64,000 bases of DNA from a methanogenic archaeon ISO4-H5 (lineage in GTDB: Archaea > Thermoplasmatota > Thermoplasmata > Methanomassiliicoccales > Methanomethylophilaceae): the NCBI GenBank assembly GCA_001560915.1, contig CP014214.1, forward strand, positions 496,001 to 560,000. The letters run 5' to 3'. This document shows positions 10,173 to 48,648 of this stretch, one piece after another (positions within the stretch are counted from its first letter, which is position 1; every line of letters begins with the position of its first letter). Position numbers and translations under genes: made by a program. Below the pieces are notes generated by a model, which saw only the letters and a list, made by a program, of their open reading frames with translations, was not told where the DNA came from and searched no databases.

Positions 10173-11408
10173 ATGTACAGGTCGCTGAAGATGAGGATCG
10201 AACCGGACTCGGAGCAGAGGAAGGTTATCGAAGCATCGTTCAGATACCACTGTTATGTATACAACGCCCTCATCACCGCCTGCAAATCATATCACAGGAG
10301 CAACGGCAGGCTGCCTTCCCAATTCGATCTCAACAAGCTGTGTACGAGGATCTGGCACAACTGTCCCTTCCTTCACAGGTACCTCTATCAGAATGCCATG
10401 AACGAGACCGCGAAACGCGTCCTTCAGGCATTCGCCAAATGCGAGGAGAACCGCAGGAGGAAGGAGAGGAGGAACAGGGGAAAGTCCAAAGGAAAAAAGA
10501 ATACCGAGGTCACTACACCGCCGGAAACGGTATTGGCCTGTCCCAGGTTCAGGAAGCCCTCCAGATTCGATTCGTACACCAATCCCCTGCACATGGAGGT
10601 CTTTACCGAAAGGAACGGCAGACGCATGCTGAAGGTCTCCAAGGTCAAGGGTCCTGTCCGCTGCTATAACCAGAAGACCCCGGTCCCCGGGGTGCCCAGG
10701 ACATGTACCATAGAAAAGGCGGATAAGGGGACCCATACCGAATATTACGCTTGTCTCTCCTGCTGGGACGATATCGAACGCCGCAGAGGGGATGAGTATC
10801 TGGGCGAACATTCCCCCGATGCCGTGGGAATAGATATGGGTGTATCCAAGACCGCCACGCTGTCCGACGGCACAGTGTACGGTAACGATCACATGTACTC
10901 GAAACTGCTGGACCTTTTCAGGAAGAAGCACGAGGCATTCAGCACTATGCTTCCGGGTACTCCCGAATACAGGAAGGCAAGGTCCCGTCTGAGCCATCTC
11001 TACGGGAGGCTCAGGGGGATCCGCAGGAACAACGTTGAGATGATATCCCGTCAGATTGTAGATGCTTTCGACATAATATGCATGGAGGATCTGCCTGTAA
11101 GAAAATTAAGAAGAAAATCCAGAGGAAAACGCATGACGAACGCATACGACGACGCATCCCTGGGGATACTGAGGAGGAGGCTCATCGACAAAGCGATAGA
11201 AGCTGGCCGTAGGATAATCCTCGTCGATCCCAAATGGACGTCCCAGGTATGCTGCAGATGCGGAGCATGCGTGAGGAAAGGCCTGGAGGTAAGGACACAT
11301 GTGTGTCCCGAATGCGGCCTTGTTATAGACCGCGACCTCAACAGTGCGATAAACATCTTGATATGGGGGTTGACCGGCAACCCTTTCCCTGAAAGATGGG
11401 ATGAATAG
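10173..11408 (+). CDS. tnpB: TnpB RNA-guided nuclease (OrfB, Zn-ribbon)
   Basis: TnpB proteins are RuvC-type nucleases guided by an omega-RNA made from the element's right end, and they help retain the element. All parts are visible in 411 residues: a helix-rich N-terminal half, RuvC motifs with D221 (GIDMGVSK), E305 (CMEDL) and the DRD at 386-388, and a zinc ribbon C360-x2-C363 with C378-x2-C381. The reading frame is intact, so the protein is probably active. It ends in TAG, a stop used by no other class of gene in the window. It is about 95 percent identical by eye to the copy at 19857, differing mainly in the basic linker near residues 100-120. Confidence 0.93.
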   Translation: MYRSLKMRIEPDSEQRKVIEASFRYHCYVYNALITACKSYHRSNGRLPSQFDLNKLCTRIWHNCPFLHRYLYQNAMNETAKRVLQAFAKCEENRRRKERRNRGKSKGKKNTEVTTPPETVLACPRFRKPSRFDSYTNPLHMEVFTERNGRRMLKVSKVKGPVRCYNQKTPVPGVPRTCTIEKADKGTHTEYYACLSCWDDIERRRGDEYLGEHSPDAVGIDMGVSKTATLSDGTVYGNDHMYSKLLDLFRKKHEAFSTMLPGTPEYRKARSRLSHLYGRLRGIRRNNVEMISRQIVDAFDIICMEDLPVRKLRRKSRGKRMTNAYDDASLGILRRRLIDKAIEAGRRIILVDPKWTSQVCCRCGACVRKGLEVRTHVCPECGLVIDRDLNSAINILIWGLTGNPFPERWDE

Positions 11409-19856: not shown

Positions 19857-21092
19857 ATGTACAGGTCGCTGAAGATGAGGATCGAACCGGACTCGGAGCA
19901 GAGGAAGGTTATCGAGGCATCGTTCAGATACCACTGTTATGTATACAACGCCCTCATCACCGCCTGCAAATCATATTACAGGAGCAACGGCAGGCTGCCT
20001 TCCCAGTTCGATCTCAACAAGCTGTGTACGAGGATCTGGCACAACTGTCCCTTCCTTCACGGGTACCTCTATCAGAATGCCATGAACGAGACCGCGAAAC
20101 GCGTCCTTCAGGCATTCGCCAAATGCGAGGAGAACCGCAGGAGGAAGGAGAGGAGGAAGTCCAAAGGAAAGGCCGATAAGGAGAATGCCGAGTTAACCGG
20201 ATCTCCGGAAACGGTATTGGTCTGTCCCAGGTTCAGGAAGCCCTCCAGATTCCATTCGTACACCAATCCCCTGCACATGGAGGTCTTTACCGAAAGGAAC
20301 GGAAGGCGCATGATGAAGGTCTCCAAGGTCAAGGGTCCTGTCCGCTGCTATAACCAGAAGACCCCGGTCCCCGGGGTGCCCAGGACATGTACCATTGAAA
20401 AGGCGGATAAGGGCACCCATACCGAATATTACGCATGTCTCTCCTGCTGGGACGATATCGAACGCCGCAGAGGGGATGAGTATCTGGGCGGACATTCCCC
20501 CGATGCCGTGGGAATAGATGTGGGAGTATCCAAGACCGCCACGCTGTCCGACGGCACAGTGTACGGTAACGATCATATGTACTCTAAACTGCTGGACCTT
20601 TTCAGGAAGAAGCACGAGGCATTCAGCAATATGCTTCCGGGTACTCCCGGATACAGGAAGGCAAGGTCCCGTCTGAGCCATCTCTACGGGAGGCTCAGGG
20701 GGATCCGCAGGAACAATGTGGAAACCATCTCCCGTCAGATTGTAGATGCTTTCGACATAATATGCATGGAGGATCTGAAAGTAGGAAAGATAAGAAGGAG
20801 ATCCAGAGGAAAACGCATGACGAACGCATACGACGACGCATCCCTGGGGATGCTGAGGAGGAGGCTCATCGACAAAGCGATAGAAGCTGGCCGTAAGATA
20901 ATCCTCGTCGATCCCAAATGGACGTCCCAGGTATGCTGCAGATGCGGAGCATGCGTGAGGAAAGGCCTGGAGGTAAGGACACACGTGTGTCCCGAATGCG
21001 GTCTGGTAATAGACCGCGACCTCAACAGTGCGATAAACATCTTGATATGGGGGTTGACCGGCAACCCTTTCCCTGAAAGATGGGATGAATAG
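19857..21092 (+). CDS. tnpB: TnpB RNA-guided nuclease, second copy
   Basis: 411 residues, same domains as the copy at 10173: RuvC GIDVGVSK, CMEDL and DRDLN, and zinc ribbon CCRCG with CPECG. All catalytic residues are retained. Differences cluster in the linker near residues 100-120 and at the ICMEDLKVGKIRRRS segment, where copy 1 reads PVRKLRRKS. It also ends in TAG followed by the same tetraloop hairpin. Two complete copies with many silent and a few coding differences suggest older duplication rather than a very recent jump. Confidence 0.93.
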   Translation: MYRSLKMRIEPDSEQRKVIEASFRYHCYVYNALITACKSYYRSNGRLPSQFDLNKLCTRIWHNCPFLHGYLYQNAMNETAKRVLQAFAKCEENRRRKERRKSKGKADKENAELTGSPETVLVCPRFRKPSRFHSYTNPLHMEVFTERNGRRMMKVSKVKGPVRCYNQKTPVPGVPRTCTIEKADKGTHTEYYACLSCWDDIERRRGDEYLGGHSPDAVGIDVGVSKTATLSDGTVYGNDHMYSKLLDLFRKKHEAFSNMLPGTPGYRKARSRLSHLYGRLRGIRRNNVETISRQIVDAFDIICMEDLKVGKIRRRSRGKRMTNAYDDASLGMLRRRLIDKAIEAGRKIILVDPKWTSQVCCRCGACVRKGLEVRTHVCPECGLVIDRDLNSAINILIWGLTGNPFPERWDE

Positions 21093-43086: not shown

Positions 43087-44883
43087 TCACTCGATGTACA
43101 TGTTCCTCTTGAGCTCGTCACGGGGCAGGAAGGGAGTGAGGTCCTCGAGGGGCGGGGAGTAGAGCGACCCGTCTTCCAGGATCATCGTTCCCGACTTGGG
43201 TTCGAAGAACTGATCTATGGTCACGAAGACTTCGCAGAACAAGCTTCCTTCTTCCTTGAGTATGCTATCGAGTTTGGAAAGTTCATCGTTGGTTTTGATA
43301 CTGTAATATTTGTATCCGAATGTGTCGGCGACTTTCCTGAAATCCGGGAACCCGAGATCGTGGGACTGCTCACCCATTCCGAAGTATTTACCGTTGAAGA
43401 GATTGTTCTCGGTGATCCTCATGGAATGGTATCCATTGTTGTTAATCATGAAAATCTTGATTGGGAGTTTGTTGGTCTGGATTGTCTGCAGTTCCTGGAG
43501 ATTCATCATGATGCTGCCGTCACCGGTGATGCAGATGAGATCCTTCTTTCCGTTGGCGATACACGCACCCATCGCTGCAGGAAGATCATAACCCATGGAC
43601 GCGATTGCACAGTTGATGATGAATCTCGATCCTTTCTTTATGACATAAGCCTGACTTCCGACCACACAAGCGGTTCCGTTTCCGACGACCGTTACTTTGT
43701 TATCCGGCAGTCTGCGGCTGATTTCTTTGATGAATGCGTAGGGGTTGCCTACGTTCTCGGTCTTGTAATGCTTTTCCTGGACAACGGGGTATGTGGCTCT
43801 CCATTTCTGGCATTGATCAATCCATGCCTGATTCTTGAAGACGGGGCCCGTAGATATGCGGTCGAGTGCATTGAGGAGATCTCCTGCATCTGCCCACACA
43901 GGCATATCTACGTGCACAGAGGGTTTCTTCATCTCATTGGGATCGATGTCTTCCATGATGACATATGCCGCTCTTGCCCAGCCTTCATAATTGAAACCGG
44001 TCTGTCTGAAGTTGAGTCTGGTCCCTATGGCAAGTACCAGGTCGCTGTTCTGTACTGTGAAGTTGCCGGGCCTGTCGCCCATATTTCCTCCGCGCCCAGC
44101 ATAAAGGGGGTCATCGTCCGGGATGAGGTCGATGCTGTCCCAGCAGGTGACGACAGGAATATTCAGTTTTCTGACTACTTTGAGGAAAGAATCATATCCT
44201 CCGGAGAGACGGATTCCGTTACCTGCGTAGAGTACCGGGCGTTCTGCGGAACCGATTTTTTCGATGATTGTTTTGGCGCATTCGTCCGTTACCTTCGGGG
44301 GGATTTCCGATGCATCCTCTGCAGGGTCGAAATCCACCAGGCCATCAGTTTCAATATATGCTCCCTGGACATCCAGAGGAATGTCTATCCAGCACGGTCC
44401 GGGACGACCGTGGGTGGCGATGTAGATCGCCTTGTGTATGACGTATTTGATTTTGAGAGGATCTAGGATGAGTTCGCAGTATTTTGTCATGCTGGCAACT
44501 GCTTTGGTGATGTCGAATTCCTGATCTCCTGTTGCACGCAGGGGCAGTCCGGTGCTCCTTGCCATGGTGGCGTAACGTACCTGACCGGATAACACCAGCA
44601 TCGGGATGGAGTCCAGCCACCCGCCTACTACACCGGTTATTGCGTTGGTTCCTCCAGGCCCGGTCGTGACACAGAGTACTGCCAGTTTGTTGTTTATCCT
44701 GGCATATGCTTCGGCGGCGATGGCACTTGCCTGCTCATGATGGTTGTAGTAGGTGGTCATTCCTTTGGCATTGGCGAATGCTCCGTTCAGGTGCATCGAT
44801 CCTCCACCTACGACAGTGAAACCGTCGGTGATTCCTGCCTCGACACATAGTTTTGCGATGTAATCGGATACTTTCATTTTCAT
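43087..44883 (-). CDS. Thiamine-diphosphate carboligase (acetolactate synthase-like)
   Basis: 598 residues with all three ThDP domains: catalytic Glu50 in NHHEQASAIAAEAYAR, the GPGGTNAITG region, a central domain, and the Mg-ThDP motif from GDGSIMMN to MINNNGY. It lacks the company of ilvN or ilvC and lies directly after rfbG and before a sugar epimerase, so a sugar-related carboligation is more likely than branched-chain amino acid synthesis. A known parallel is YerE, which adds an acetyl unit from pyruvate to a CDP-keto sugar. It is four bases from rfbG, and the operon continues downstream. Confidence 0.78.
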   Translation of the reverse strand: MKMKVSDYIAKLCVEAGITDGFTVVGGGSMHLNGAFANAKGMTTYYNHHEQASAIAAEAYARINNKLAVLCVTTGPGGTNAITGVVGGWLDSIPMLVLSGQVRYATMARSTGLPLRATGDQEFDITKAVASMTKYCELILDPLKIKYVIHKAIYIATHGRPGPCWIDIPLDVQGAYIETDGLVDFDPAEDASEIPPKVTDECAKTIIEKIGSAERPVLYAGNGIRLSGGYDSFLKVVRKLNIPVVTCWDSIDLIPDDDPLYAGRGGNMGDRPGNFTVQNSDLVLAIGTRLNFRQTGFNYEGWARAAYVIMEDIDPNEMKKPSVHVDMPVWADAGDLLNALDRISTGPVFKNQAWIDQCQKWRATYPVVQEKHYKTENVGNPYAFIKEISRRLPDNKVTVVGNGTACVVGSQAYVIKKGSRFIINCAIASMGYDLPAAMGACIANGKKDLICITGDGSIMMNLQELQTIQTNKLPIKIFMINNNGYHSMRITENNLFNGKYFGMGEQSHDLGFPDFRKVADTFGYKYYSIKTNDELSKLDSILKEEGSLFCEVFVTIDQFFEPKSGTMILEDGSLYSPPLEDLTPFLPRDELKRNMYIE

Positions 44884-44887
44884 TGTA

Positions 44888-45952
44888 TCACTCCAGGGAA
44901 ATATTCCTGCCCAGGAGGTATTCTTTTATCTGTTTGTCCACGCAGTCTCTGATATTTCCTCCTGCATTCCAGACCTTGGTCCATTCGACTGTTTTTTCCA
45001 CAGCGGTATCAATATGCCACAGAGGTTTGATTCCGAATGTGTCTTTGAGTTTTGAATTATCCAGTTTTAGGAAATTGGCTTCATGCGGCCCATTATCCTC
45101 TAAGGCTTTCCACTTCATTCCGTTGCCCCAGAAATCGCAGAACAGCTGTGCTATCTCGCCGGTTTTCACGCAATCCTCTTTTTCGGGACCGATATTGTAA
45201 TTGCCTGCGAATTTTTTGTCTTCCGCCTGTTTTTCGGCGATGGTAAGATAGGAAAACAATGGTTCCAGTACGTGTTGGTAGGGGCGTACGGAATTGGGAT
45301 TCCTTAGAATCACTTCTTTGCCTGAAACCGCAGCACGGACACAGTCGGGAACAATCCTCTCTGCGGCAAAATCCCCTCCTCCGATAACATTACCCGCCCT
45401 CGCTGTGGAGATGGGGCCGAGCTGCTGCGGGTAGCTACGTACGTAGCTGTGTGTGACCAGTTCCGAACAGCTTTTTGAATTGGAATACGGATCGAAACCA
45501 TCCAGACGTTCATCCTCTTTGTAATGGTGGGCATAGTCCTCAATGTTGTCGTAGACCTTATCCGTGGTTACATTTAGGAAGGATTTGCATCCGAACAATC
45601 TTACGCATTCAAGGATGTTGACAGTCCCCATTACATTGGACTGGTAGGTGTACCTGGGGTCCTTATATCCCTCTCTGACCAGAGGCTGAGCGGCAAGGTG
45701 GAACACGATATCCGGCTTTACTTCCTGATAGAATGAAGACAGTTTTTCAAAATCTGCGATGTCTCCAATGGCCGATTTGACATATTTTTCTGAATCCAAG
45801 AGTGAAAAGAGATTGGGGTCGGTCGGAGGTTCCAAAGAATATCCGTATACTTCCGCACCTAGTAGTTTAAGTATGCGGCAAAGCCAGGAACCTTTGAATC
45901 CAGTGTGTCCGGTTACAAGCACTTTTTTGCCTTTGTAAAAGTCAGCCAGCAT
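44888..45952 (-). CDS. rfbG: CDP-glucose 4,6-dehydratase
   Basis: Makes CDP-4-keto-6-deoxyglucose from CDP-glucose. The family fingerprint VLVTGHTGFKGSWLC is at the N-terminus, followed by HLAAQPLVREGY, the TTDKVYDN catalytic region, YSNSKSCSELV (Y-x3-K) and RAGNVIGGGDF. I start at MLADFYKG (45952; 354 residues); the open frame to 46036 reads as non-protein. The matching cytidylyltransferase RfbF is at 52961. There is no CDP-4-keto-6-deoxyglucose 3-dehydrase in the window, so a dideoxy sugar is not directly supported. Confidence 0.92.
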   Translation of the reverse strand: MLADFYKGKKVLVTGHTGFKGSWLCRILKLLGAEVYGYSLEPPTDPNLFSLLDSEKYVKSAIGDIADFEKLSSFYQEVKPDIVFHLAAQPLVREGYKDPRYTYQSNVMGTVNILECVRLFGCKSFLNVTTDKVYDNIEDYAHHYKEDERLDGFDPYSNSKSCSELVTHSYVRSYPQQLGPISTARAGNVIGGGDFAAERIVPDCVRAAVSGKEVILRNPNSVRPYQHVLEPLFSYLTIAEKQAEDKKFAGNYNIGPEKEDCVKTGEIAQLFCDFWGNGMKWKALEDNGPHEANFLKLDNSKLKDTFGIKPLWHIDTAVEKTVEWTKVWNAGGNIRDCVDKQIKEYLLGRNISLE

Positions 45953-46066
45953 AATACACCTTTGAATGCTCTGTATGCTGGATTGTTCTCTTGTTATTAA
46001 TAGTTGGAAGAACAAGGCGGTTTGATTCGAAGTCAAGGTACGTTATAATGTGAACATTTGCCCTTA

Positions 46067-46828
46067 TTATTCGTCGAATTCTTTCTTCATCAATGGGATA
46101 AGCCTTGCGATGGAATCGATACAGAATCTGGATTCAGTGTTCTTACCTATCAGGACAGAGGGCGCGCCGGAACAATTTGCCATCTATATGTCGCTCTCGA
46201 AGGTATCTCCGACAACGAGGATTTCGTCTGAAGCCAGATTCAGTGATTCGGAAACATAATCGAACATCGCCCTGTTCGGTTTCCCTACATACATGTCAAC
46301 GGTTTTTCCAGTACAGTACTCGATGGGGGCGACCATGCCGCCGCATCCGGGACATTTTAATTCTCCTTCGCAGGGGAACAGACGTTCCTTGTTGCAGGCT
46401 ATTATTTTCTTTGAATGCAGCGCTACGTTGCATGCGATCTTGAGTTTTTCGTAATTAAATTGATAGTCCATTCCGATTACAAGTATGTCCGATTCGGGGT
46501 TTTCGAAATCATCTATGCCAACAAGTGCGAATTCCTCTTTTAATCCGGGAGTGCCGCTTACGTATACTTTCTCTGCACCAATTTTTTTCACGACATATGC
46601 GCAGAGGAATCCGGCAGAGATGACATCGTCAATCGAACAGTCGATTCCCAGTCCGTTCAGTTTTTCTACAACGAGTCTGCGTGATTTTTCGGAATTATTG
46701 GTGAAGAAGAATAATCTGATACCGCGGGAACGGATGTACTCGATGGTTTCCTTGGCACCATTTATCAATTCTGGGCCTTTGTAGACTGTCCCGTCAAGAT
46801 CCATCAGTACAGCCTTTATCTGAGCCAT
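46067..46828 (-). CDS. HAD-IIA family phosphatase with an in-frame TAG codon
   Basis: A NagD-like HAD hydrolase: nucleophile motif LMDLDGTVYKG, motif II FFTNNSEKS, cap-domain cysteines (CPGCGGM), motif III VGKPN and motif IV VVGDTFESDI. The next codon is TAG (46184-46186), but the same frame continues 39 codons (MANCSGAPSVLIGKNTES and on to EFDE) to a TAA at 46067-46069, giving the full 253-residue family length. Either the TAG is read as pyrrolysine, or a CAG or similar codon has mutated and the protein stops at 214 residues. It lies between rfbG and the aldolase gene, with which it is probably cotranscribed, and may dephosphorylate a sugar precursor. Confidence 0.8.
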
Positions 46829-46832
46829 GATA

Positions 46833-48404
46833 TCATTCGTATTGGGTATCTGTCAGGAACGTGATTTCCATATCCTTGCGGAGATCGGCGATGGCCTGAG
46901 AGATTTTGCTATTCAGTTCTTCCACACCGATCTTGGTAAAGTCGTATCTGGCATTGAATATCTTGTACTTGTTTAGTTCAGTATATCCATCCATGCCTGC
47001 GATAGCTACCTTTTTCACACCTGCCGCGCGGAGAATCTTGAGGATCATAAGTCCGCTGTTGTCTATAATCAGCGGGTCCTCGAACAGATATGAATTGTAA
47101 TTGAAAACGAAACTTACGAGGTCAGTGGGGTCCCTGATGTTGGAAGTGACGAGTTTTCTGAGACCTCTGTTCTTCAAACGGTTATACTTCCTCATATTGC
47201 CGTAGAATGAGTAATCTGTGGGGATATCGGTCGGTTCGAAACTGACAGAGATGACAATCGGTTTGACTTCTTTGAAGTATTTTTTGACCCTGTCTATCTG
47301 GAGAAGATGATTCTCGCCCGGTGCTATGATCAGCACTTCGCGGTTGTTGATAACTGTGGCGAAGTCTTCCAGAGCCTTGCGGTCATCGACGTAGTTCCGC
47401 ATGTATTCCTTGTAGTAGTTCTCGGCCAATTCCTCTGTGAATATATGGCTGTCTTCAGGTTTGATCGTTTTCAACAATTCGTTGAACGCTTTCTCTGTCA
47501 GTGCACCCTTGTCATTGTAGTATTTGGCATAGTTGGGGTGGACCTTATTCTTGGCGGATAGATAGAAAGGTACGGAATAACCCCAGAAGTGCAGACGGTA
47601 GATGTCCATCAGGCATTCGTCGATAATCTCCAGCATAGGCTCGATACGGTAGGACTTGTTGTAATTCTCGTTGAGATAATCCGCGAAAAGCTCTTCGTTG
47701 AGATTTCCTGCACCTCTGCCCATACCGAAAACACATGCGTCGATGAGGATATCGCGTTTGAGACCCAGTTCCACGAGGGATTCTGCGTTTCCGCGAGCCT
47801 GTTGAAGATTGTTATGGGAATGATATCCGAGACAGACTCCATCGGCGAGTACATGATCCACCAAGTACACCATACGCATGAAATCCTTACGTTTGAGCAG
47901 ACCGAGCGAATCCACGATGTACACCGAATGCGGTTTGAGCGTATTGAATTTACGGACCGCATGCCCCAACTCATCATCGCTGTAGGTATCGGTACTTACC
48001 AGCTGGATCATGACCCCATATCCTAGCTTGGTGATTTCCCGAGCATATTCGTAACCGAGGTCGATTTTATCCTGTTTGAATATAACACGAATCAGGTCGA
48101 TTCCGCCGGGCTGATAAGGCTTGATGCGCTCGAGCGGGACAGGTTTACTCATGTCGACCATGCCCACGTATTTCGTGTTCTTGGAGCGGGGTTTAGGAAT
48201 GACAGAATTGATACTGTCTGTATCAGGGAACAGCGTAGAGTCTGGATCGGGCGAATCTCCTTTGATAAATCCTATCTCGATGTATTCGATTCCAGATGTC
48301 TCAAGTTTCCTGAGAATGTAATCAATAGATTCTCTCCCGAATTTCCAATTGTTGATGTACCCTCCATCCCGAAGTGTACAATCGAGAAGATTTATTGAAT
48401 CCAT
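46833..48404 (-). CDS. DRE-TIM aldolase fused to a C-terminal nucleotide-sugar-type domain
   Basis: Residues 1 to about 300 are an HMGL-like TIM barrel of the 4-hydroxy-2-oxovalerate aldolase type: LLDCTLRDGGY with the DRE-like metal aspartate, GYHSHNNLQQA and a GMGRGAGNLNEE turn. The last 170 residues form a separate domain starting EVLIIAPGENHL and ending near AIAGMDGYTE, resembling DUF115-like folds of glycan clusters. I start at MDSINLLDC (48404; 523 residues); the 40 residues upstream are AT-rich leader. It probably makes or cleaves a C-C bond on a keto-acid or sugar, in step with the ThDP enzyme of the same operon. Confidence 0.72.
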   Translation of the reverse strand: MDSINLLDCTLRDGGYINNWKFGRESIDYILRKLETSGIEYIEIGFIKGDSPDPDSTLFPDTDSINSVIPKPRSKNTKYVGMVDMSKPVPLERIKPYQPGGIDLIRVIFKQDKIDLGYEYAREITKLGYGVMIQLVSTDTYSDDELGHAVRKFNTLKPHSVYIVDSLGLLKRKDFMRMVYLVDHVLADGVCLGYHSHNNLQQARGNAESLVELGLKRDILIDACVFGMGRGAGNLNEELFADYLNENYNKSYRIEPMLEIIDECLMDIYRLHFWGYSVPFYLSAKNKVHPNYAKYYNDKGALTEKAFNELLKTIKPEDSHIFTEELAENYYKEYMRNYVDDRKALEDFATVINNREVLIIAPGENHLLQIDRVKKYFKEVKPIVISVSFEPTDIPTDYSFYGNMRKYNRLKNRGLRKLVTSNIRDPTDLVSFVFNYNSYLFEDPLIIDNSGLMILKILRAAGVKKVAIAGMDGYTELNKYKIFNARYDFTKIGVEELNSKISQAIADLRKDMEITFLTDTQYE

Positions 48405-48648
48405 GTACTGAGTCGATGTTGGTTGCAATATAAAATATGAGGGGGTTAACAACAATGTTGCCATTTGAAGAAATATTTCAAAACTACTTCTGGGAATCAT
48501 TGTATTGACTCGATACGTATCCAATTGTTATGTTTGTTAAGGTTTCATGGTTTTCATTCAAGCGAGTATAGTATTCACTCGTCATATGGTTGGGAAGTAC
48601 AATGTGCGGTAGTGCACTTATTTATAAAACTAACCATCTGCCAGAATT

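Follow-up and report, generated by a model that had tools for sequence, protein, structure and literature searches.

The genome of the methanogenic archaeon ISO4-H5 is a finished single contig of 1,937,883 bp with a completeness of 99.9% and a GC content of 53.8% in the part of the genome sampled. ISO4-H5 was described as a rumen member of the Methanomassiliicoccales with 1,937,882 bp and 54% GC (PMC5011839). In the window, which is the whole stretch of 64,000 nucleotides analysed here, the minus strand harbours a gene predicted to encode a HAD-IIA phosphatase (Table 1). In record CP014214 this gene lies at about 542,067-542,828. The sequence-only reading of the locus had described this frame as broken by one TAG right after motif IV, and translation of the minus strand confirmed it: codon 215 is TAG, directly follows VVGDTFESDI, and is the single interruption, with no frameshift and no second internal stop in the gene. 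The tail beyond it had been given as 39 codons to TAA; it is open as described, but counts 38 sense codons, 39 being reached with the stop included. The frame scored 116.3 bits against TIGR01460 (HAD-SF-IIA; cut-off 100.15), and the Pfam matches to Hydrolase_6 and Hydrolase_like were both above cut-off. The motifs DLDGT (residues 10-14), GKP (182-184) and GDTFESD (207-213) are invariant or nearly so in the alignment of relatives. Motifs, TIGR01460 match and predicted fold give the protein the features of HAD-IIA phosphatases, namely motif I (DxDxT), the GKP lysine, motif IV (GDxxxxD) and a C2 cap.

Table 1. Features of the HAD-IIA phosphatase gene and its neighbours (positions are those of the window)
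Feature	Position	Strand	Description or basis
HAD-IIA phosphatase gene	46067..46828	-	253 codons with the TAG read through, TAA end
In-frame amber TAG, codon 215, proposed pyrrolysine	46184..46186	-	Frame translation; complete pylTSBCD in the same genome
38 sense codons past the TAG, encoding the end of the helix behind motif IV, the final strand of the HAD core (224-227) and its C-terminal helix (240-250)	46070..46183	-	Profile test; secondary structure of the model
Tandem TAA TAA closing the full-length frame	46064..46069	-	Sequence
HMGL-like aldolase, 4-hydroxy-2-oxovalerate aldolase kind	46833..48524	-	Pfam HMGL-like; TIGR03217 below cut-off
CDP-glucose 4,6-dehydratase, downstream neighbour	44888..46036	-	TIGR02622, 413.5 bits (cut-off 278.45)
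Thiamine-diphosphate (ThDP) enzyme, acetolactate-synthase-like, same cluster	43087..44883	-	Three TPP_enzyme Pfam domains

The HMGL-like aldolase gene lies upstream of the HAD gene with a gap of 4 bp, and both genes probably belong to the same operon. The true start of the CDP-glucose 4,6-dehydratase is probably the ATG near 45953. Together, the ThDP enzyme, the dehydratase, the HAD phosphatase and the aldolase form a minus-strand cluster (window 43087-48524), which suggests a branched-sugar pathway. The aldolase also adjoins relatives of the HAD gene in four other loci (L058, L061, L062, and L063), two of these relatives being from within the family. The trio of ThDP enzyme, aldolase and HAD protein recurs in Desulfosporosinus (L062) and Bacterium D16-36 (L063), and the ThDP enzyme of the latter is 58% identical. 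Because the cluster neighbours recur in relatives that include these two, the HAD enzyme probably removes phosphate during synthesis of an unusual CDP-linked sugar, and gene exchange has probably carried the cluster between bacteria and archaea.

The open frame after the TAG was rejected as evidence by itself, since 102 out of 344 real post-stop regions (30%) stay open for at least 38 codons. A profile of the relatives gave 245.4 bits to the full frame and 221.4 to the truncated one, and neither the 1000 shuffled tails (maximum 233.0) nor the 343 real post-stop extensions (maximum 230.3) included one that reached this full-frame score. With a profile from the five nearer relatives only, the full frame scored 270.2 and the truncated frame 241.6, and no control was as good. 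The earlier description of the tail as family-like was borne out by these comparisons, according to which the tail is HAD-IIA family sequence. The codon-usage score per codon is 0.270 before and 0.273 after the TAG, an equality that by itself says little because 9% of the post-stop regions score as well. In this respect the gene looks as expected for a Pyl protein, having one in-frame TAG and family homology that extends beyond it.

An AlphaFold model of the full-length HAD protein, built with an alignment of 33 relatives, had a pLDDT of 95.3; a single-sequence model (pLDDT 36) was discarded. The best PDB fold matches of the model are HAD-IIA phosphatases, including A. fulgidus Pho2 (3qgm) and TM1742 (1vjr), and fold and motifs are shared with these NagD-like p-nitrophenyl phosphatases. 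However, phosphatases of the TM1742/Pho2 type have an ordinary sense codon at the site where the HAD gene has TAG. Residue 215 is placed inside helix 210-220, after motif IV, with strand 224-227 and helix 240-250 beyond it, so a stop at codon 215 would cut the helix midway and remove the last strand of the sheet. Truncation after residue 214 would probably leave the protein inactive. In the alignment of 112 relatives, few columns of the region vary as much as 215 (A29, R26, V16, K13, L8, T6, E4, G4, M3, and Q2), which stands close to the invariant G207, D208 and D213. The residue of TM1742 that matches site 215 is lysine, and pyrrolysine is a lysine derivative. Pyrrolysine should be tolerated at 215, and since the site accepts almost any residue, it would most likely be neutral there.

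The genome of ISO4-H5 harbours pylT, pylS, pylB, pylC and pylD together in one cluster (locus L034). PylS (TIGR02367), PylB (TIGR03910), PylC (TIGR03909) and PylD (TIGR03911) were all above the curated NCBIfam cut-offs. A pattern match located pylT just upstream of pylS (L034:7689-7747, minus strand), with CTCTAAA in the anticodon region. ARAGORN did not call pylT, and an unconstrained fold gave no cloverleaf; an imperfect or deviant anticodon stem is a published trait of tRNA-Pyl in this order (PMC3941956). The strain possesses, in sum, the pylS/B/C/D genes and the pylT with CUA anticodon of a pyrrolysine-decoding organism, so the absence of pyl genes, which would have spoken against decoding, does not apply. 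The proposal that TAG can encode pyrrolysine in such a genome is supported by the complete cluster and by the publication of ISO4-H5 in 2016 as a pyrrolysine user with 46 in-frame-amber genes (PMC5011839). The genome also carries an mtmB-mtmB-mtbB arrangement, which like the pyl cluster agrees with the published description of ISO4-H5.

The release factor aRF1 (L142:670-1905, plus strand) retains the NIKS and YxCxxxF motifs, read by eye, and UAG termination has probably not been lost in ISO4-H5. Since the release factor looks intact, full-length and truncated products of the HAD gene probably coexist. No PYLIS-like element was matched by Rfam in the region 45900-47000 around the HAD TAG; the same search finds elements in mtmB and mtbB. 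PYLIS is dispensable for pyrrolysine decoding (PMC2933860). Because the aRF1 motifs are kept and a PYLIS-like element was not found, read-through at 215 need not be complete.

Within the window, TAG ends three out of 34 called genes, the HAD gene and two TnpB copies, in agreement with the earlier statement that TAG elsewhere in the window is a stop only at the two TnpB genes. Genome-wide TAG use was counted on a sample of 439 kb with 364 called ORFs, seventeen of which (4.7%) end in TAG, compared with 18.7% expected from the trinucleotide background. Several of the seventeen are spurious antisense ORFs in a GC-rich genome, and for that reason the TAG ORFs mentioned here are limited to those that have a domain or family sequence. 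TAG was found inside conserved Pfam domains of MtmB (codon 202), MtaC (codon 70), a geranylgeranyl reductase (codon 249) and a GT4 glycosyltransferase (codon 76), and these are, judged from their sequences, clear read-through genes. True TAG terminators are likely few, comprising those of the two TnpB copies, of an IS transposase and perhaps of a nucleotide kinase. The genome of 'Ca. M. alvus' has 1.6% TAG stops and 16 Pyl candidates besides the methyltransferases, and low TAG frequency was read as a sign of constitutive decoding (PMC4153887).

The GT4 glycosyltransferase gene (L053:4535-5680, minus strand; genome about 1,904,535-1,905,680), with its TAG in the Glyco_transf_4 domain, is another pyrrolysine candidate of a sugar or glycolipid pathway, and the paper on ISO4-H5 (PMC5011839) does not name it in its main text. 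A winged-helix-like regulator frame (MarR-type by eye; L039:10508-11020, plus strand) has a TAG at codon 66 and no Pfam match, and is a lead only. The two TnpB genes are near-identical, lie on the plus strand at window 10173-11408 and 19857-21092, and each have TAG as their last codon. If it were read through, the proteins would gain 23 or 47 residues with non-coding-looking codon scores, so this TAG seems to be a true stop, left from an element of outside origin. Archaea in which all TAG codons stand for pyrrolysine have reportedly been described by Kivenson and colleagues in Science in 2025.

The nearest orthologues of the HAD protein are 40-45% identical, and none above 45% was found in 14 genomes of the genus, 102 genomes of the family and the GTDB contigs. 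In each of the 112 relatives, 36 or more residues follow the position matching I214, and consequently no relative resembles the truncated form. TAG at site 215 is present in no relative found, all of which use sense codons, so conservation of the TAG, which had been looked to for support, cannot be claimed. Conserved TAG in orthologues, a feature of Pyl proteins, is not required in neutral cases such as Thg1. It had also been proposed that sense codons in all relatives would speak against decoding. Every relative found does have a sense codon, but this is compatible with decoding, since the published Pyl genes other than those of the methylamine methyltransferases are likewise confined to particular lineages (PMC4153887; Thg1, PMC2933860). 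The sense codons argue against a conserved role for pyrrolysine here and, as they occupy a very variable position, the alignment suggests that TAG was gained recently in this lineage, and probably neutrally, as in Methanosarcina acetivorans Thg1.

The main rival remains the one named from the start, a recent nonsense mutation, since relatives all have sense codons at 215 and aRF1 looks capable of reading UAG. The TAG would then mainly stop translation, the enzyme would be cut mid-helix and inactive, and the tail would be a fossil that has not yet decayed. Surface-sugar clusters are variable, with frequent gene loss, and the IS605-type TnpB copies in the window are a sign of recent rearrangement, both of which fit such a loss. 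However, the remainder of the gene is intact and its tail still scores fully as family sequence, and in a genome that has pylTSBCD a newly arisen TAG is read through at least in part: M. acetivorans decoded an introduced amber at about 20-30% (PMC2933860). We therefore regard this explanation as unlikely. A sequencing or assembly error that changed a sense codon such as AAG or CAG to TAG would need one base change only, and a single genome is on hand; against this, the assembly is a finished, nearly complete contig, and a TAG at 215 is not odd because the genome has many other in-frame TAGs, which makes an error very improbable. Least credible is a functional pyrrolysine that makes the UAG a control point, with full-length phosphatase and surface sugar produced solely under ample pyrrolysine, in which case the cell surface would change with the supply of methylamine. 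In favour of this reading, the two products should both occur, and the availability of pyrrolysine probably tracks methylamine metabolism, but the site is highly variable, no relative has the TAG, and the low TAG frequency is taken as constitutive decoding.

We consider it likely that the TAG at codon 215 is read as pyrrolysine. The product would be a functional HAD-IIA phosphatase belonging to a cell-surface sugar cluster, and codon 215 of its gene would have turned TAG recently. PylBCD would synthesise pyrrolysine, PylS would charge tRNA-Pyl(CUA) with it, and ribosomes would incorporate it at codon 215 while the release factor competes for the same codon. Some full-length enzyme of 253 residues would result, with pyrrolysine on the helix after motif IV, together with some truncated product of 214 residues, which is probably unstable.

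The HAD gene does not represent a new system; it adds to a phenomenon that has been published for this order and, probably, for this genome. Similar to the predicted Pyl proteins from 'Ca. Methanomethylophilus alvus' (Borrel 2014, PMC4153887) and from ISO4-H5 (PMC5011839), it belongs to the same order with the same pyl cassette, and shares with them a single TAG in an ordinary metabolic gene, TAG as a rare terminator, and homologues elsewhere without TAG; the main text on ISO4-H5 (PMC5011839) does not name it. In Thg1 (tRNA-His guanylyltransferase) of M. acetivorans, pyrrolysine was physically seen and is unneeded for activity (PMC2933860; Heinemann 2009). Like the HAD gene, Thg1 stands outside methylamine metabolism and gained its in-frame amber in one lineage, whereas pyrrolysine in the HAD protein is predicted only. 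In ISO4-H5, the in-frame UAG of MtmB, MtbB and MttB is translated as pyrrolysine. In these methylamine methyltransferases pyrrolysine is a conserved catalytic residue, and mtmB and mtbB are followed by a PYLIS-type element, in contrast to the variable HAD site, which is without such an element. To call a glycan-pathway phosphatase an unexpected pyrrolysine protein was too strong, as in-frame amber is already listed for glycosyltransferases, lipid enzymes and a sugar-phosphate isomerase in the literature on this order.

The HAD gene adds one well-supported candidate to the ordinary genes drifting into pyrrolysine use in Methanomethylophilaceae. It argues for reading TAG as a sense codon by default in the annotation of these genomes; under the standard code the HAD gene would be shortened by 39 codons. 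Because its position is known and tolerant, codon 215 is a clean peptide target for measuring the efficiency of UAG reading in this order.
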